Shown: piece after piece, positions 22,841 to 59,042 of the stretch | Layout: the number at the start of each line of letters is the position of its first letter | Numbering within the stretch: position 1 is the stretch's first letter | Source of the DNA: Sycon ciliatum | Taxonomy: Eukaryota; Porifera; Calcarea; Leucosolenida; Sycettidae | Length of the DNA: 64,000 nucleotides | Direction: 5' to 3' | Assembly (NCBI RefSeq): GCF_964019385.1 | Contig: NC_088645.1 | Coordinates: 42,238,331-42,302,330, forward strand | Notes under the pieces: generated by a model | The model's database searches: none | The model's input: the letters and a program-made list of their open reading frames with translations, nothing else | Told to the model about the DNA's origin: nothing | Made by a program: the position numbers and the translations under genes

Positions 22841-22916
22841 CTTTTTCTTGGGCGCCTCGTAAAGCTTGAATCCTCCAGCAGCCCTACCTACTTCTAGTCA
22901 AAACATGTGATGGACA

Positions 22917-23907
22917 GCTGCTATTCTGTCAGGTAGTGATATCTTCTCACCATGCTCACACTGTACTTAGCTGCTATTCTGTCAGGTAGTGAAATCTTCA
23001 CACCATACTCACACTGTACTTAGCTGCTATTCTGTCAGGTAGTGATATCTTCTCACCATGCTCACACTGTACTTAGCTGGTATTCTGTCAGGTAGTGATA
23101 TCTTCACACCATACTCACACTGTACTTAGCTGGTATTCTGTCAGGTAGTGATATCTTCACACCATACTCACACTGTACTTAGCTGCTATTCTGTCAGGTA
23201 GTGATATCTTCTCACCATGCTCACACTGTACTTAGCTGCTATTCTGTCAGGTAGTGATATCTTCTCACCATGCTCACACTGTACTTAGCTGCTATTCTGT
23301 CAGGTAGTGATATCTTCTCACCATGCTCACACTGTACTTAGCTGCTATTCTGTCAGGTAGTGATATCTTCTCACCATGCTCACACTGTACTTAGCTGCTA
23401 TTCTGTCAGGTAGTGATATCTTCTCACCATGATTACACTGTACTTAGCTGCTATTCTGTCAGGTAGGGATATCTTCTCACCATGCTCACACTGTACTTAG
23501 CTGCTATTCTGTCAGGTAGTGATATCTTCTCACCATGCTCACACTGTACTTAGCTGCTATTCTGTCAGGTAGTGATATCTTCACACCATACTCACACTGT
23601 ACTTAGCTGCTATTCTGTCAGGTAGTGATATCTTCTCACCATGCTCACACTGTACTTAGCTGCTATTCTGTCAGGTAGTGATATCTTCTCACCATGCTCA
23701 CACTGTACTTAGCTGGTATTCTGTCAGGTAGTGATATCTTCACACCATACTCACACTGTACTTAGCTGCTATTCTGTCAGGTAGTGATATCTTCTCACCA
23801 TGCTCACACTGTGCTTAGCTGCTATTCTGTCAGGTAGTGATATCTTCTCACCATGCTCACACTGTACTTAGCTGCTATTCTGTCAGGTAGTGATATCTTC
23901 TCACCAT
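22917..23907. repeat. 53-bp satellite array, first block
   Basis: About 18.7 tandem monomers of exactly 53 bp (e.g. 23235 to 23288). Two monomer types differ at CTTCTCACCATGCTCAC versus CTTCACACCATACTCAC. The array continues at 25171 after a LINE. Confidence 0.98.
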
Positions 23908-25170
23908 CCCCCAGGGAAGCATCCTTGGACCAACGCTTTTCCCGGCCTACGTCAATGATGCGCCAGATGTTCTCGCTGACGGCGCCAGCTTGGAAGCCTA
24001 TGCTGATGATACAACTTTGTACAGCTTAGTCACCTCCCAGCAGACCCCAACAGTAGCCGCGCAGTCACTGCAGGTGTCCGTTGACCGACTGCACGAGTGG
24101 GGTCGTACATGGAAAGTGATGTTTGAACCGACCAAATCCCAGGCCCTGACAGCCACCCTCAGACGCACCGGCTTAGATCTCCCCCCACTCCTGTTTGGTG
24201 GCACACTGGTGCCCGAGACAACCACCATCACCCTCCTTGGTGTGAAGGTGGACGCAAAGTTGACCTTCAGCGATCACCTACGCTCCGTAGCCACCCGTGC
24301 ACGCCAACGGCTTGGGGTCCTAAACAGAGCCGCCCACATACTCACCCCCGCCGGCCGGACGACCGTATACAAGGCGTTCGTATGACCGGTCATGGAGTAT
24401 GCGCCTCTTGTATGGATGGGAGCTGCGCAGAGTCACCTCCAGCGTCTGAACAATGTTCAGCGCCGTGCGCTTCATGCTATCGGCCCTGGGGCACACCTAC
24501 CCAGCCTGGCCATTCGCCGCACTGTTGCCTCGCTTGCCTGCCTGTACAAGCTGCACTACTTGCCTGGTCCTCCGCAGCTGCTCTCTGTGTTGCCACCGCG
24601 CCACATCATCTCTACCAACCCCAGAACTCGCAGCGAGCACGGTGCTGTCAGTGGCCATGACCACCAGCTCCAACACCAGCTGCCTGCATCTGCCCCGCTG
24701 GCACTGAAGCGCTCGTTCCCACACTGCAGCATCAGCGATTGGAACTCCCTCCCTGCCGCTCTCCTATCCCAGCCTCCCCACAGCAAGAGAATGCAATCAT
24801 TCAAAACGAATGTTTACCGCCATCTTCGCAGCACAAACTGGCTCTGGGCAGTCGATTCCCTATGAATAGTATGATGCTAAGACAGTTTCTCCCCCCCAAT
24901 TGCTCGTGTTAAGCCTTGGGTTTTTGCATCTTTCTCACCTGTACAGCTCTATCTTCTTCTTTTTTCATTGTTTTTGGTGCGTGTTTTTGGCCGTGACGCC
25001 GAGACCTCAGGTCGGCAGAGTCATCAATGCCCCACCATCACTGCTGCGTCTCGGTGTAGCGCCTGCTCATTAGTTGTCACGTTTGTCCTAGTCTCCGTAC
25101 CATTGTCTTTCCTTATTCTTTTCGAGCTGGTTATGTGAACGAAGTAAAAAAAAAAAAAAAAAAAAAAAAA
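23908..25170 (+). mobile_element. LINE-A insertion in the satellite (5'-truncated)
   Basis: Starts inside the RT at PQGSILGPTLF, includes AYADDTTLYS (active site), and runs to the natural end NWLWAVDSL. A 3' UTR and a ~25-nt poly(A) at 25146-25170 follow. Protein sequence is almost identical to the copy at 41.3-44.3 kb, apart from one CGA-to-TGA stop near 24382. The satellite resumes at the next base of the monomer, so there is at most 1-2 bp of target duplication. Recent insertion. Confidence 0.93.
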
Positions 25171-25464
25171 TGCTCACACTGTACTTAGCTGCTATTCTGT
25201 CAGGTAGTGATATCTTCTCACCATGCTCACACTGTACTTAGCTGCTATTCTGTCAGGTAGTGATATCTTCTCACCATGCTCACACTGTACTTAGCTGCTA
25301 TTCTGTCAGGTAGTGATATCTTCTCACCATGCTCACACTGTACTTAGCTGCTATTCTGTCAGGTAGTGATATCTTCTCACCATGCTCACACTGTACTTAG
25401 CTGCTATTCTGTCAGGTAGTGATATCTTCTCACCATGCTCACACTGTACTTAGCTGCTATTCTG
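25171..25464. repeat. 53-bp satellite array, second block
   Basis: About 5.5 monomers, nearly all of the TCTCACCATGC type, continuing the phase of the first block. Confidence 0.97.
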
Positions 25465-41235: not shown

Positions 41236-41270
41236 GCGTGTGCTTTCTTGCAGGTTTGCCGAGTCGAAGG

Positions 41271-44200
41271 GTTTTTTTTTTTTTTTTACTACGTTCACAT
41301 AACCAGCTCGAAAAGAATAAGGAAAGACAATGGTACGGAGACTAGGACAAACGTGACAACTAATGAGCAGGCGCTGCACCGAGACGCAGCAGTGATGGTG
41401 GGGCATTGATGACTCTGCCGACCTGAGGTCTCGGCGTCACGGCCAAAAACACGCACCAAAAACAATGAAAAAAGAAGAAGATAGAGCTGTACAGGTGAGA
41501 AAGATGCAAAAACCCAAGGCTTAACACGAGCGATTGTGGGGGAGAAACTGTCTTAGCGTCATACTATTCATAGGGAATCGACTGCCCAGAGCCAGTTTGT
41601 GCTGCGAAGATGGCGGTAAACATTCGTTTTGAATGATTGCATTCTCTTGCTGTGTGGAGGCTGGGATAGGAGAGCGGCAGGGAGGGAGTTCCAATCGCTG
41701 ATGCTGCAGTGTGGGAACGAGCGCTTCAGTGCCAGCGGGGCAGATGCAGGCAGCTGGTGTTGGAGCTGGTGGTCATGGCCACTGACAGCACCGTGCTCGC
41801 TGCGAGTTCTGGGGTTGGTAGAGATGATGTGGCGCGGTGGAAACACAGAGAGCAGCTGCGAAGGACCAGGCAAGTAGTGCAGCTTGTACAGGCAGGCAAG
41901 CGAGGCAACAGTGCGGCGGATGGCCAGGCTGGGTAGGTGTGCCCCAGGGCCGATAGCATGAAGCGCGCGGCGCTGAACATTGTTCAGACGCTGGAGGTGA
42001 CTCAGCGCAGCTCCCATCCATACAAGAGGCGCATACTCCATGACTGGTCGTACGAACGCCTTGTATACGGTCGTCCGGCCGGCGGGGGTGAGTATGTGGG
42101 CGGCTTTGTTTAGGACCCCAAGCCGTTGGCGTGCACGGGTGGCTACGGAGCGTAGGTGATCGCTGAAGGTCAACTTGGCGTCCACCTTCACACCAAGGAG
42201 GGTGATGGTAGTTGTCTCGGGCACCAGTGTGCCACCAAACAGGAGTGGGGGGAGATCTAAGCCGGTGCGTCTGAGGGTGGCTGTCATGGCCTGGGATTTG
42301 GTCGGTTCAAACATCACTTTCCATGTACGACCCCACTCGTGCAGTCGGTCAACGGACACCTGCAGTGACTGCGCGGCGACTGTTGGGGTCTGCTGGGAGG
42401 TGACTAAGCTGTACAAAGTTGTATCATCAGCATAGGCTTCTAAGCTGGCGCCGTCAGCGAGAACATCTGGCGCGTCGTTGACGTAGGCCAGGAAAAGCGT
42501 TGGTCCAAGGATGCTTCCCTGGGGGACTCCAGCGGAGGTCGTATACCTAGATGACGTCCGCCCTCCAACGAGGCACTGTAGGGAACGGGTGTCCAGGTAC
42601 GACGCCAGCCATCTCTGAAGCGGACCATCTATGCCTAGGCTACGTACCTTGTGGAGGAGGCCGACATGCGAGACACGATCAAACGCTCCTGCGATGTCCA
42701 CAGCAAGGATACGAGCCGCCCCTCCACAGCCCACAGCGCTTGCCCAGGCAGTTTGGAGAGCTTGCAAAGCGTCCGATGTTCCGAGGCCTCTGCGAAATCC
42801 AAACTGGTGGGACGTGAGCAGATGATGGTCTTCAAAATAGTTTACGATGTGTCTGTTTACAAGAGTTTCCATTACTTTCGAGATTATGCACAGTAAGGAT
42901 ACGGGCCTGTAGTTCTTAAGGGTTGAGCGGGAAGACCGCTTGTGGATCGGAACCACGTTGGCCGTCTTCCACATCCTAGGTTGCACTCCAGACCGGAAGC
43001 ATAAAGCAAATAACTTGGACAGTGGCTCTGCGAGCTCATGAGCACATTCCTTAAGGACGCGAGCAGAAATACCGTCAGGCCCGGTAGCCTTGGAGACGTT
43101 GAGCCTTGCCAGGAGGCGGCGTACAGCCTGTGGGCGGAAGCGGATGGTGCGAAGAGGTGGAGCCTCTGAGGGAGCAGGGTCCGGTAGGTCAGCCTCCACA
43201 AGGTCCGGACCGGCAACGCTACATTTCTTCGAGAAGAAGCGAGCGAATGCCTCTGCTTTCTCTGAGCTCGTTGCCCACTCGCGGCCGTCAGAGTCGACAA
43301 CTAGGGGAATTTCGGGCTGTGTGCCAGCAGCGTTCTTCAACTTCGTCCACCACTGTTTGTCTCTGAGGGACCCAGTTGAGAGGCTGTGACGGAGGCTGTC
43401 CTCCTTTGCACGTCGTGATCGGAACTGGGTGGCGATCGCTACAGTCACGGAATCGGTGAATGCCTGCTGAAGTGCTGGGTCATAAGGGTGTTTTCTCCAG
43501 TCGCGCCAGCGCTTCTCCTTCTCCCTCTCGGTCTGGGTGCATTCAGGCGTCCACCATACCGGATCGGAAGGCCTCGTTTCCAGGACTTTGGATGGGACAA
43601 ACTGTGCAACAGCTGCAGTAATGGAAGCGGTAACCTGCTCACAGGAAGTTTCTGGGTCCTCCGTGATGATATCACCCCATTCCACGTTGCGAAGGTGCGC
43701 CCTGAGGCGATCCCAGTCTGCCCTGTTGTAGCGAAATACTGTTCGCTTAACAGGGGGTTCATGTCTGGGGAGCACGGAAGAAAAGTCTGACAGTACAACT
43801 GCATGGTCAGATCGACCGAGGGGCGGAAGTATACGTGTAGTTACTGGGGACGTGAACGTTGACATTATGAGATCTAGCGGGTTGTCTCCACGAGTCGGTA
43901 CTGTGACATGCTGGACAAGAAGATGGGCAGCGCAGGTATCTTCGAGAGCCTCGCCTGCAGGCGTAGTTTTCGAGCTGTTCAGCCAAGCCCGGTTGTGCAC
44001 GTTGAAATCGCCAGCTAGGATGATGTGGGAGCCCTGGTGTCTAGCTTCTGGGAGGATGTTGTCGAGATGATCGATTAAGGTAAGGTCGCCAGGGGCACAG
44101 GACCCCGGCCGATACACTGCTCTCAAGACGGTGCGGAGACCTGGGGCCAGCTGGAGAGAAACCCAGATGATCTCATGTGCGGGGGACATGAGTTCAGGGA

Positions 44201-44300
44201 TGAGCAAGGAGGGGAGTGACGACTTCACCCAGATGGCTACCCCTCCCCCATGTGCCGTTCTGTCCAACCGAAGTGGTGAGCTGTATCCAGGGAAGCTAAT
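41271..44300 (-). mobile_element. LINE-A insertion in the hammerhead element
   Basis: Poly(T) at 41272-41287 marks the 3' end. The 5' end is truncated within the endonuclease domain at 44300. The sequence GAAGGTTCG, intact at 44776-44784, is split here with GG on both sides, so target duplication is 2 bp at most. Nearly identical to 23908-25170. Confidence 0.92.
41568..44300 (-). CDS. LINE-A ORF2 (endonuclease-RT), 5'-truncated but open
   Basis: About 910 codons without a stop. Endonuclease: GYSSPLRLDRTAHGGG, YRPGSCAP, LAGDFNVHNRAW, GRSDHAVVL. RT: SKATGPDGISARVLK, VPIHKRSSR, FGFRRGLGT, DIAGAFDRV, GVPQGSILGPTLF, AYADDTTLYS (active-site Asp pair ~42424-42435). Thumb motifs LLGVKVDAKLTF and SDWNSLPAALL follow, then the end NWLWAVDSL. 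It reverse-transcribes LINE RNA at a nicked target. Only the N-terminal part of the endonuclease is lost, so RT could still be functional if expressed. Confidence 0.9.
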   Translation of the reverse strand: MSFPGYSSPLRLDRTAHGGGVAIWVKSSLPSLLIPELMSPAHEIIWVSLQLAPGLRTVLRAVYRPGSCAPGDLTLIDHLDNILPEARHQGSHIILAGDFNVHNRAWLNSSKTTPAGEALEDTCAAHLLVQHVTVPTRGDNPLDLIMSTFTSPVTTRILPPLGRSDHAVVLSDFSSVLPRHEPPVKRTVFRYNRADWDRLRAHLRNVEWGDIITEDPETSCEQVTASITAAVAQFVPSKVLETRPSDPVWWTPECTQTEREKEKRWRDWRKHPYDPALQQAFTDSVTVAIATQFRSRRAKEDSLRHSLSTGSLRDKQWWTKLKNAAGTQPEIPLVVDSDGREWATSSEKAEAFARFFSKKCSVAGPDLVEADLPDPAPSEAPPLRTIRFRPQAVRRLLARLNVSKATGPDGISARVLKECAHELAEPLSKLFALCFRSGVQPRMWKTANVVPIHKRSSRSTLKNYRPVSLLCIISKVMETLVNRHIVNYFEDHHLLTSHQFGFRRGLGTSDALQALQTAWASAVGCGGAARILAVDIAGAFDRVSHVGLLHKVRSLGIDGPLQRWLASYLDTRSLQCLVGGRTSSRYTTSAGVPQGSILGPTLFLAYVNDAPDVLADGASLEAYADDTTLYSLVTSQQTPTVAAQSLQVSVDRLHEWGRTWKVMFEPTKSQAMTATLRRTGLDLPPLLFGGTLVPETTTITLLGVKVDAKLTFSDHLRSVATRARQRLGVLNKAAHILTPAGRTTVYKAFVRPVMEYAPLVWMGAALSHLQRLNNVQRRALHAIGPGAHLPSLAIRRTVASLACLYKLHYLPGPSQLLSVFPPRHIISTNPRTRSEHGAVSGHDHQLQHQLPASAPLALKRSFPHCSISDWNSLPAALLSQPPHSKRMQSFKTNVYRHLRSTNWLWAVDSL

Positions 44301-44649
44301 GGTTCGATGGACTTCTCGTGTGCTCTGGATGGCAGTCGTGAGTCAGTCAAGTGTCAAGTAAAGTCGGCGGAATAGCGCGAGCTCCGGTGTGGGGAGCAAA
44401 CCTTTTCTTACAAATCATCGCCGAAGTCGCAACCACTACTTCGTACAGTTGTGCCCAGCGCGGGCTTGCGACTAGTTGGTTTGGAGGTGACAGCGTTGCG
44501 AATGACCGAGGGTCCTCGACGTCTGTCTCACCGTCCAGGAGCGACACTGACTCACGCTGCTATCTGGTGTTCACGAGGTGTTTGTCGCGCTGGAAACGGA
44601 GCGTCTCTGTAAGTTTGTATCCCTGGTGATGTTGGTGCCTGGAGAGCAC

Positions 44650-44656
44650 TATATAA
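44650..44656 (+). promoter_or_regulatory. TATA-like box upstream of the hammerhead
   Basis: TATATAA, 40 nt before the first ribozyme stem. It sits in the loop of the hairpin formed by CCTGGAGAGCAC and GTGCTCTTCAGG (one G-U pair), so it may alternatively be an RNA structural element. Confidence 0.4.
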
Positions 44657-44695
44657 GTGGTGCTCTTCAGGCACAATCTTCCTCAGCCTACTCAA

Positions 44696-44741
44696 GCTCA
44701 ACTGATGAGGGGTGAATTCCCCGAAACACTGTGTATTGAGC
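44696..44741 (+). ncRNA. Hammerhead ribozyme, type I, minimal stem III
   Basis: Stem I GCTCAA (44696-44701) pairs perfectly with TTGAGC (44736-44741). CTGATGA is at 44702-44708. Stem II GGGG/CCCC (44709-44712, 44719-44722) has loop TGAATT. GAAA is at 44723-44726. Stem III is two base pairs (CA/TG, 44727-44728 with 44732-44733) with a CTG loop. GTA at 44733-44735 is the NUH cleavage triplet; predicted cut after 44735. All invariant core nucleotides are present. Very short stem III is known from Penelope-element and retrozyme hammerheads, which often act as dimers. Activity is inferred, not shown. Confidence 0.85.
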
Positions 44742-44921
44742 AGGGAGTGGTGCTTTCTTGCAGGTTTGCCGAGTCGAAGGTTCGATGGACTTCTCGTGTG
44801 CTCTGGATGGCAGTCGTGAGTCAGTCAAGTGTCAAGTAAAGTCGGCGAAATAGCGCGAGCTCCGGTGTGGGGAGCAAACCTTTTCTTACAAATCATCGCC
44901 GAAGTCGCAACCACTACTTCG

Positions 44922-45508
44922 TAATAATAATAATAATTATTTTTATCTATTATACAATGTAGCTCATGGGTGTTGAAGATATGTCATTTATGAATATGTC
45001 TATATGTCATTTATGAATATGTCTATAATGTCATTTATGAATATGTCTTTAATGTCATTGAATATTGCAGCCTGAGTGATAATAATAGTGCTATTTCCTG
45101 AGTTTGACTGTTTCAGGATCTGTCGGAATGTCACGATGCACAGATCTTCATGCATAGATCTCGCCATGCGGGTCGGTCATGGGCAATGGCTCGCAGGCTC
45201 TGCAGAGCGTCTAGGTTCCCGAGCAATCCAGCATTGGCTTGGTGCATACCTCCCACCAATGAAACCCCAATAAACCCCATTAGTAAATAAAAATCTGAAA
45301 TCCCCTGGCGAAACGTGGTCTATACAACTGTTTACACGTCCGGTTACCACATGTAATTCACTCAGCAGAGTCGAGTCCAGCGAGCTGTAACTCCTGGTGC
45401 CGAAATGCGGGCTCACACCCGGTGACCCCTACATGGCTACGTCCCCTTGTCTATCCCCAAAGAATAAAATTGATAGTAGCCGACTGGCAGAAATTAAAAA
45501 AATCAATC
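44922..45508. other. No gene; 28-bp tandem repeat at 44984-45060
   Basis: Three units of GTCATTTATGAATATGTCTA plus a short linker. The rest (45061-45508) is unrecognised. Confidence 0.6.
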
Positions 45509-45520
45509 AAGGCTTAAATA

Positions 45521-45965
45521 GGAATGGGTTTGCTCCCACACTGGAGTTCGCGCTATTCCACCCACTTGACACTTCACTGAATCACGACTGCCATCCAGAG
45601 AACACGAGAAGTCAATCGAACCTTCGACTCAGCAAAACCTGCAAGAAAGCACCACTTCCTGCTCAATACACAGTGTTTCGGGGAATACACCCCTGATCAG
45701 TTGAGCTTGAGTGGGCTGAGGAAGATTGTGCCTGAAGAGCACCACTTATATAGTGCTCTTCAGGGACAAACATCACCAGGGATACAAACTTACAGAGACA
45801 CTCCGTTTCCAGCGCGACAAACACCTCGTGAACACCAGATAGCGGCGTGAGCCAGTGTCGCTCCTGGACGGTGATAACAGACGTAGAGGACTCTCGGTCA
45901 TTCACAACGCTGTCATATCCAAACCAGCTAGTCGCACGCCCGCGCTGGGCACAACAGTACGAAAT
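45521..45965 (-). mobile_element. Hammerhead-ribozyme retroelement B, about one unit, 12-bp TSD
   Basis: Inverted relative to element A and aligned with unit positions ~44436-44880. AAGGCTTAAATA occurs directly outside both ends (45509-45520 and 45966-45977), a perfect 12-bp duplication. The element starts a few bases before the unit boundary used by element A (CTTCG|TAC) and stops ~40 nt short of the unit's end. Independent retroposition rather than local duplication is implied. Confidence 0.8.
45661..45706 (-). ncRNA. Hammerhead ribozyme motif with mutated core
   Basis: Same helices as the 44.7-kb motif (stem I GCTCAA/TTGAGC, stem II GGGG/CCCC, GAAA, GTA), but the core reads CTGATCA (plus strand 45694-45700) instead of CTGATGA. 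In standard numbering this changes G8, a catalytic guanosine, so this copy is predicted to be inactive. Confidence 0.75.
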
Positions 45966-46139
45966 AAGGCTTAAATACACCAAGCATAGAGGTGTCCGGT
46001 TTTTGACATGACTGTACTAAGTACATTGTAGTACATTGACATCCTGCGCAACTCAATCCAATCTGGTAACCCCGTAAACGTAAATGACCACAGCGCTCAC
46101 TGTCGCCGCATCACTAGCCAAATCAGCAGGGAACGAGAT

Positions 46140-46955
46140 GTGATTTCCGCTGAAATCAGCCAATCAATTCTCAGTGACCTGCCACAGCTTGAGGAGCGCA
46201 CCCTCTCCCGCATCGTACGGGGAAATGCCTCCGGATGGCTTACGGTGTTGCCCCTGAAGCGCGAGGGGTATGATCTGTCGAGTACAGAATTCCGCGATCA
46301 ACTTGCCATCCGCTATGGTCGGCAGCCGCTTGCCCTGCCAGCGCATTGTGATGGTTGCGGGAAGCCTTTCTCTCTCCAGCATGGCCTTGACTGCCCGAAA
46401 GGTGGACTTATCAAGCGAGGCCACAATGATCTGCGTGATAGCGATGCAAAGCTAGCTGATATGGCATTCGGTGGTGTTGTCGTCGAGCCGATCATGGTGC
46501 CGGAGGGTGATCGGACGGGGCAGCCTGCTCTTCGGGCAGATTGGCTTGCCCGGGGTGTGTGGGAGGATAACAGGGTGGCGTTTTTTGATAATCGCATCAT
46601 TGATGCCAACGCACCCAGTTACTCCCATTCATCCTGGGAAGCTACTTCCAACCGCGCTGCTAACGCGAAGAAAAAGAAGTGTCGTCAGGCCTCCGAGGAC
46701 CTCCGTGGGTCGTTCACACCACTGGTTTGTTCCACGGATGGGGTGCTACATCGCGAATACGCCAGCTACCAGAAGCGACTTGCTGGTCGCCTCGCCCTCA
46801 AGTGGGACAAGCCATTTTCTATCATCATGGCTTGGGTGCGAGTTCGCAGCCAGTTTGCAGTGATCCATGCAGTCGACCTCCTGCTACGCGGGTCTAGAAG
46901 GCGCCTGACAGGCCTGTCGACGCAGGATGGTGCTGGGGTAGGCACCGGCCATTGA
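46140..46955 (+). CDS. Retroelement-type protein with Cys-rich and nuclease-like domains (partial)
   Basis: 271 residues. ASGWLTVLPL and STEFRDQLAIRYGRQPL lead into a CDGC ... H ... C zinc-binding pattern and a GGLIKRGHNDLRD motif (residues ~65-105). Then VEPIMVPEG, ALRADWLARGVWED and VAFFDNRIIDANAPSY follow, a PD-(D/E)XK-like acid pattern, then FTPLVCSTDGVLHREY and LLLRGSRRR. This block is a recurrent C-terminal module of reverse-transcriptase-bearing elements in invertebrate genomes (from memory, not searched). The frame is open a little upstream of the ATG and no RT precedes it, so the copy is 5'-truncated. AATAAA at 47016-47021 could be its poly(A) signal. Confidence 0.55.
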   Translation: MISAEISQSILSDLPQLEERTLSRIVRGNASGWLTVLPLKREGYDLSSTEFRDQLAIRYGRQPLALPAHCDGCGKPFSLQHGLDCPKGGLIKRGHNDLRDSDAKLADMAFGGVVVEPIMVPEGDRTGQPALRADWLARGVWEDNRVAFFDNRIIDANAPSYSHSSWEATSNRAANAKKKKCRQASEDLRGSFTPLVCSTDGVLHREYASYQKRLAGRLALKWDKPFSIIMAWVRVRSQFAVIHAVDLLLRGSRRRLTGLSTQDGAGVGTGH

Positions 46956-58240: not shown

Positions 58241-58323
58241 ATCACATTAATTTTGTCACTTTTGTAACTTAGGGTGTGCCACGTTTCTATGCAGAATGAG
58301 CGCAATTGCGCCAATTTAGCCCT

Positions 58324-58330
58324 ATAAAAG
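58324..58330 (+). promoter_or_regulatory. TATA-like box upstream of the second hammerhead
   Basis: TATAAAA, 48 nt before stem I of the 58.4-kb hammerhead, close to the spacing seen in element A. Confidence 0.4.
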
Positions 58331-58378
58331 TCAGTCTAACCTTATTATTCTGAAAGAGTTTCATTCAACATCATATGC

Positions 58379-58422
58379 CTCCACTGATGAGCTCAGGAGG
58401 AGCGAAACAGCTGTCTGGAGGG
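58379..58422 (+). ncRNA. Hammerhead ribozyme, type I, palindromic stem III
   Basis: Stem I CCTCCA (58379-58384) pairs perfectly with TGGAGG (58417-58422). CTGATGA 58385-58391. Stem II GCTC/GAGC (58392-58395, 58401-58404), loop AGGAG. GAAA 58405-58408. Stem III is the palindrome CAGCTG (58409-58414). The cleavage triplet is GTC (58414-58416). Core invariant and all helices complementary. A palindromic stem III with no loop would favour a dimeric ribozyme. Helices are unrelated in sequence to the 44.7-kb motif, so this is a second family. Confidence 0.8.
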
Positions 58423-59042
58423 TCAATGTCAATATCAATCTATATACCGGAATTGTCCTCGCTGTTGTGATGGTGATGTGAGTGCAGAGTTTGGATCGGC
58501 CAAGAGGGCAATGTGGTGGTGTGGTGTATTGAGATGCATGCAGTGTCAACAAAGTGAGGCACGGTCCCAGCATGTACACAAGGTATGGGAAGGGGGGGGG
58601 GGGGGTGCTGGGCATACTGCACGATACATATATGCGTAACAGGGATGTCACTTGTCTCACATGTTTCCTTCGCCGAACTGTTTACATTGAAACCAAGGGA
58701 AGGCAGTGAGAGGAGCACAAAGACTATCCATGCAGCCACTGCACTAGTGTATACAGAGCAGCACGTTTACGGCTTTAGGAATACATGTCTGAAGTCACAT
58801 TACCAATGATTTATGAATACATGACCAATGTGACCATGACCAATGAGAATGTACCCAGTGTGATGACAGTGCTCAATATCGGAGGCAGAGTGTAGCACAG
58901 AACAGAACAACAAGGACAAACAAGGCTTCTTTGCTGCGACTTCAAGTTTCATGCTGTCGCAATTATCAGGCAACGGTTGCGTTCTGTTCTGACTAATGAT
59001 TATAAAGTCAACCCTGTTAACGATCTATGTGTAGCATTCAAA
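58423..59042. other. No gene; probable body of the hammerhead element
   Basis: Contains the 48-bp repeat shared with 39505 and a G run near 58592-58605. Element boundaries were not found. Confidence 0.4.

Follow-up and report, generated by a model that had tools for sequence, protein, structure and literature searches.

Fixed insertion ends of a hammerhead retrozyme in the sponge Sycon ciliatum point to copying by a Penelope-like enzyme

A 64,000-nucleotide stretch of Sycon ciliatum DNA (NC_088645.1, here C3:42238331-42302330, in a genome of 538 Mb and 313 contigs), called the window below, is eukaryotic, rich in long interspersed nuclear elements (LINEs), and holds tandem units with a hammerhead ribozyme; it raises the question of which machinery copies such units. 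Animal retrozymes without long terminal repeats (non-LTR retrozymes) were defined by Cervera and de la Pena (2020, PMC7229834), who regard Penelope-like elements (PLEs) as a strong candidate mobiliser; other authors describe animal retrozymes as having no conserved motif that reveals the mobilising retrotransposon, with PLEs as likely candidates (PMC7761336), or name LINEs or PLEs (PMC11722881). Cited papers are represented here by parts of their texts. The explanation that we favour, with a probability of roughly 0.75, is that the element is a non-autonomous non-LTR retrozyme mobilised in trans: the enzyme of a PLE would copy a single, probably circular RNA, with both strands of the cut target serving as primers. 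Against the open-licence full-text literature, the kind of element is known, while its insertion anatomy and the link to PLEs look new.

An earlier note, made from the letters of the window, had described a retrozyme-like, non-coding tandem element with a type I hammerhead of tiny stem III, and each of these points was supported. The complete hammerhead that it had read (HHR1, Table 1) was confirmed by sequence: CTGATGA (44702-44708), GAAA from 44723 and the triplet GTA with A17 at 44735, together with a 6-bp stem I (GCTCAA/TTGAGC), a 4-bp stem II (GGGG/CCCC) and a 3-bp, near-palindromic stem III (ACACTGTGT). Allowing at most one core mismatch, a hammerhead descriptor matched three window sites (44702+, 58384+, 45700-), compared with 0.05 on average per second-order Markov window (60 windows, both strands); with zero mismatches it matched two, against none in those 60. 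The Rfam match that had been suggested as a check was not obtained, as no window hit reached the gathering threshold and no hammerhead was reported for the HHR1 motif up to E = 10. The 478-bp head-to-tail unit also stood, the copy of 44303-44443 at 44781-44921 being extended to 44923, as did the TATA-like box with its hairpin upstream of HHR1, a possible promoter or structural element. The unit is non-coding (longest M-started frame 44 codons, longest stop-to-stop frame 95 codons, read as a circle), has 53.8% GC and is highly self-paired, with a circular fold of -194.2 kcal/mol vs -163.4 kcal/mol (standard deviation 7.3) for 60 shuffles. It had no match in a plasmid collection, and a 26-base piece of it had no exact match in viral_contigs or genome_contigs.

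The form of the insertions, head-to-head with two fixed ends, is not visible in the window because the rest of the genome is needed. The 46-nt hammerhead occurred 2,381 + 2,288 = 4,669 times in the genome with at most 3 mismatches (reversed control, 0), so that the absence of other copies, raised in the earlier note as a ground for rejection, fails as an objection. A search with the unit gave at least 177 matches, a lower bound since 40 of 323 candidates were scored, and the full-length ones among the matches listed were 97-100% identical. Dispersed copies number thousands, on both strands. Around the best unit matches, 35 loci were fetched and their pieces mapped by BLAST, a mapping that omits short matches inside the unit's own hairpin. 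This gave 42 intervals, of which 40 were analysed. Because these loci had been selected for high similarity to the full unit, a second sample was examined, namely the 100 exact hammerheads that came first in the list for contig C1. Among the unit pieces of the fetched loci that cover the hammerhead, the HHR1 core was intact in 133/139, and unit 361-440 was the least variable part (0.4% vs up to 2.5%).

Most insertions consist of two tandem arms pointing away from each other, with the 5′ ends central and the 3′ ends outward. Outer ends were classed as A (unit 136-150) or B (unit 100-118). Both outer ends could be classed in 28 of the 40 intervals, and all 28 paired an A end with a B end (A+A, 0; B+B, 0), which we call the A+B rule; in these, A lay at unit 139-148 and B at 104-116, 26-40 nt apart (median 32). 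The two excluded intervals were a further A+B insertion (L028:3662-3877) and a single arm ending at B (L014:2037-2226). The C1 sample is largely separate, since 2 of its 16 head-to-head pairs lie within the 35 fetched loci. Its neighbours at up to 1.5 kb were head-to-head 16 times, tail-to-tail 0 times and on the same strand 25 times, mostly at a spacing of 477-480 bp. Arm length had a mean of 839 nt and a median of 705 nt, the lengths for one locus (L040) being wrong owing to BLAST artefacts.

For the target sites, the 28 intervals were entered by hand from the end classification, and insertions at (TAA)n sites were omitted from the duplication test since a duplication within such a run carries no information. 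Repeats of 9-14 bp in the flanks were present in each of the 11 A+B insertions that lack a (TAA)n run at the site, vs a maximum of 8 in 110 mismatched flank pairs. A (TAA)n run was found at 17/28 targets vs 134/3600 random stretches of the same loci. One insertion (L023) and the second insertion of L033 share the same position of one repeat, and the empty site for the former, with a single AATAAACAAGAA, was located at L036:3709-4010 (97% identical). Duplications and empty site already argue against a satellite repeat whose spread and inversion would be due to DNA recombination or to an assembly error, a reading that we consider scarcely credible; the tandem 478-bp units and the signs of DNA-level expansion in one array (L019) speak for a satellite, whereas thousands of dispersed copies on both strands, fixed ends and the low divergence between insertions (2.0%) speak for a mobile element.

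The arms bear on the template. They were compared in 24 of 30 two-armed insertions (6 dropped for too little overlap; unit 95-146 masked), and partner arms differed by 0.37% vs 1.45% for permuted partners, with 0 of 2000 permutations as low. Over all pieces, opposite arms differed by 0.66% and pieces within arms by 1.2%, the latter inflated by L019, compared with the 2.0% between insertions. The 58 inner ends, a small number of them BLAST artefacts (among these, three at unit 1), were distributed round the unit (Kolmogorov-Smirnov test against uniform, p = 0.24), and 0 of the 58 lay 3 nt or less from the 5′ end that hammerhead cleavage would generate. Overlaps of two or more bases occurred at 19 of 29 inner junctions, vs 4.5 expected. 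Arm similarity, spread inner ends and arm lengths are consistent with a circular template copied over random lengths. The template could instead be linear, a multimeric transcript of an array already in the genome: arrays exist, read-through is possible, and in vitro, hammerhead mutants left PLE insertion unchanged, uncleaved RNA being the main substrate (PMC11167929). We regard it as possible but doubtful, since inner ends are found throughout the unit and do not accumulate at the end expected from cleavage; moreover, RNA multimers should fall apart because 133/139 hammerhead cores are intact.

The evidence on the enzyme comes from a resident PLE. A GIY-YIG family search of the genome reported 13 matches, and one locus (L065) carries a PLE with an 807-codon frame, in which GIY-YIG scored 25 bits (scanned on 602 codons in L063) and a reverse transcriptase (RT) motif was recognised by eye; Pfam gave no RT family for this frame. 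Its pseudo-long terminal repeats (pLTRs) are inverted, head-to-head and 96% alike, and by eye a 35-nt tail is present on one side only, with a target duplication of ~11 bp that has one mismatch. The PLE comparison comprised this copy and a second one (L066). The tail of the first ends in CACGGCTACTTCGT, and the A end of the second is identical but for one base. The A end of the retrozyme, AACCACTACTTCGT, matches this PLE end at 11/14 positions in register, and 21/330,832 other pairs were as good; the terminal motif CTACTTCGT is common to the two elements. The hammerhead descriptor with adjacent stem I gave no match in either PLE locus, and a minimal hammerhead-like stretch was noticed in the pLTR, by eye only.

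The same insertion form could also have been produced by the enzyme of a LINE. R4/Dong-like LINEs prefer TAA repeats, and TAA targets and 12-14-bp duplications would suit such an enzyme; the window is full of LINEs, and next to copy 2 of the retrozyme a frame at 46140-46955 contains a CCHC motif and a RAD/PD-like stretch, by eye, resembling restriction-like-endonuclease LINEs (no Pfam family). We judge a LINE enzyme unlikely, since two internal start sites ~32 nt apart with head-to-head pairs are the published PLE pattern, and the terminal motif of the retrozyme recurs, in register, at the end of the resident PLE; no search was aimed at R4/Dong-like LINEs. In vitro, the PLE protein of Poseidon_Ac cuts and extends both strands of AT-rich DNA (Frangieh 2024, PMC11167929) and initiates synthesis at a pair of neighbouring internal positions of the RNA, which delimit a 30-40-bp tail; the word retrozyme is absent from the part of that paper represented here. 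In rotifer Penelope, the pLTRs are inverted, one of them carries a 31-bp tail, and the duplications measure 8-10 bp (PMC3846280). For the head-to-head pairs of rotifer PLEs, self-priming on an antisense template was proposed (PMC3846280), and the inverted form could have arisen in this way instead of by priming at both target ends. This appears quite improbable here, as the outer ends are separate fixed sites at two target junctions, accompanied by a target duplication, and the inner junctions show short overlaps only.

Because the PLE literature matches the observed anatomy, the retrozyme insertions are interpreted as products of PLE reactions that use a small and probably circular RNA. Tandem units would be transcribed, perhaps from the TATA-hairpin region, cut by the hammerhead into 478-nt units and ligated into circles. 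A PLE protein would then bind the RNA at about unit 108-143 and cut the two strands of AT-rich target DNA at positions about 9-14 bp from each other; both target 3′ ends would prime on one RNA, one complementary DNA (cDNA) starting from site A and the other from site B ~32 nt away. Each cDNA would follow the circle over a random length, in many cases past a full lap, giving tandem arms, and the two would join head-to-head, often via microhomology. We lean, by a small degree, towards a more specific form of PLE copying, in which a dimer of the PLE RT holds a single circular RNA by two fixed sites, each always serving one target strand, with one start site per subunit, and carries out rolling-circle reverse transcription in both directions from a double-strand break; the A+B rule would then be the footprint of an asymmetric dimer.

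Several observations weigh against copying by a PLE on a circle as set out here. Outside the tail motif, no clear sequence is shared by the retrozyme and the two PLE copies compared. The partner arm was the nearest of all in only 7/24 insertions, several others being indistinct from the crowd, and in L016 it was further off than 24/26 other arms. Filler took the place of overlap at 5/29 inner junctions, and 12/40 intervals were not A+B but single-armed (including both window copies), cut, or ending elsewhere. The hairpin with an AC-rich loop between B and A (44422-44443, -5.5 kcal/mol when folded locally) is absent from the minimum-energy fold of the whole 478-nt circle. In L019:1613-9670, an array of about 17 units, 15 variants are common to subsets of units, which suggests that this array expanded at the DNA level after insertion; long arrays may also grow in this way. 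Finally, the two strands did not visibly differ in start site in vitro (PMC11167929), so that study gives no reason to expect a strict A+B rule.

If PLE copying is correct, the insertion ends of the retrozyme supply a motif that points to the mobilising machinery, link retrozymes with the biochemistry of PLEs and make the mobiliser question directly testable in vitro; the A+B rule also provides genomic evidence on PLE insertion, a poorly known process.

The features of the window are collected in Table 1. The span 41236..44921, proposed as one element, held for its retrozyme pieces and not for the LINE nested in it, whose frame (41568-44267) encodes an apurinic/apyrimidinic (APE)-type endonuclease and RT and is separate from the retrozyme. 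The earlier note mentioned neither this LINE nor copy 2 or HHR2. Because this minus-strand LINE with a poly(A) tail sits between the unit pieces, copy 1 was most likely a single insertion of about 652 bp, judged from its sequence, that was later split. To the left of 41240 lie (AAT)n and a few unmatched bases, and the end of copy 1 at site A belongs to the class common to genomic insertions. In copy 2, the hammerhead core is mutated to CTGATCA (G8 to C). LINE tails in (AAT)n adjoin the hammerheads of the window. The nested LINE has a 98% relative at 23907-25161, and 53-bp tandem repeat arrays (22916-23907 and 25170-25464; 96-100% matches) flank a truncated LINE copy.

Table 1. Coordinates of the retrozyme copies, their parts and the second hammerhead element in the window
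Feature	Positions	Strand	Basis and remarks
Left piece of copy 1, unit 448-478, 31 bp	41240..41270	+	100% match to unit
Nested LINE with poly(A) tail, younger insertion into copy 1	41271..44302	-	Pfam RVT_1 and Exo_endo_phos
One full 478-bp retrozyme unit	44303..44780	+	Sequence comparison; genome matches
Tail segment, 35 nt, site B (unit 108) to site A (unit 143)	44411..44445	+	Ends of 28 insertions
18-bp hairpin enclosing TATATAA (44650-44656), 40 nt upstream of hammerhead	44635..44674	+	-33.1 kcal/mol; also in copy 2
Type I hammerhead ribozyme HHR1	44696..44741	+	Motif reading, descriptor search; predicted cleavage after A44735
Start of next unit, 143 bp	44781..44923	+	99.3% identity; stops at site A (unit 143); (TAA)n follows
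Copy 2 target-site duplication, left, 12 bp, AAGGCTTAAATA	45509..45520		
Copy 2, single arm, unit 135-478 and 1-108, ends at site B	45519..45966	-	Sequence comparison
Copy 2 target-site duplication, right, 12 bp, AAGGCTTAAATA	45966..45977		
HHR2 element, unrelated to HHR1	58251..58531	+	Core 58384-58390; predicted cleavage after C58415; copy without tail

Two variants were met in the fetched loci. At L037:4509-4612, a miniature insertion of ~100 bp in total joins a B arm of ~30 nt to an A arm of ~75 nt within (TAA)n, its host being a tRNA-like short interspersed nuclear element with a (TAA)n tail (L037:4361-4500; A and B box by eye); such remnants may be many and overlooked. At L024:428-1040, an older unit subfamily (~83% identical) carries two hammerheads and an altered tail (CTCTTCTTCACA).

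HHR2 matched Rfam RF02275 (HH9) at 22.9 bits (E = 0.0021), below the gathering threshold of 52; its stem III is palindromic (ACAGCTGT), and TATAAAA lies upstream. It was considered as the start of a PLE open reading frame (ORF) and rejected, no long frame being present downstream. The genome has at least 48 matches (40 scored of 1047 candidates), several of them in head-to-head pairs. In L049, two HHR2 arms some 400 bp apart are flanked by a 14-bp duplication (TTGTTCGCACATAT), with a short end on one side and on the other an end ~33 nt longer that contains CGCTACTTC, a motif not at the very end. Retrozyme, PLE and HHR2, three otherwise unlike element types, thus seem from their sequences to share an insertion anatomy, PLE and HHR2 each on a single well-resolved copy. 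The B-A hairpin was tried as a shared structure and rejected: besides being absent from the circular fold, it is local in the retrozyme, weaker in the older subfamily and the HHR2 tail, and different in the PLE tail.

Among known systems, the element resembles animal non-LTR retrozymes (PMC7229834) in its type I hammerhead with short stem III, tandem non-coding units of one hammerhead each, dispersed copies, multimers, high self-pairing as a circle, target duplications above 4 bp and co-existing PLEs. Its unit of 478 bp compares with repeats of 150-450 bp (RNAs of 170-400 nt), a described range and not a definition, circles of up to >1000 nt being mentioned, and its GC content of 53.8% compares with <50%, likewise a described property and not a definition (PMC7229834). 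In the main text of that paper the words "inverted" and "head-to-head" are absent, and no fixed-end pair was met in the parts represented here. With plant LTR retrozymes (PMC7761336) it would share hammerhead-made RNA circles copied in trans; those elements differ in having a type III hammerhead, LTRs, a primer-binding site, a polypurine tract, 4-bp duplications and Ty3/Gypsy machinery (PMC7761336). The retrozyme is not itself a PLE, because it has no ORF with RT and GIY-YIG endonuclease, and it differs from PLEs also in its laps of a 478-nt unit. It is like PLEs (PMC11167929, PMC3846280) in its head-to-head terminal copies, one-sided tail of 30-40 bp, AT-rich target, two internal start sites and hammerhead, and its duplications of 9-14 bp stand beside the 8-10 bp of rotifer Penelope (PMC3846280).

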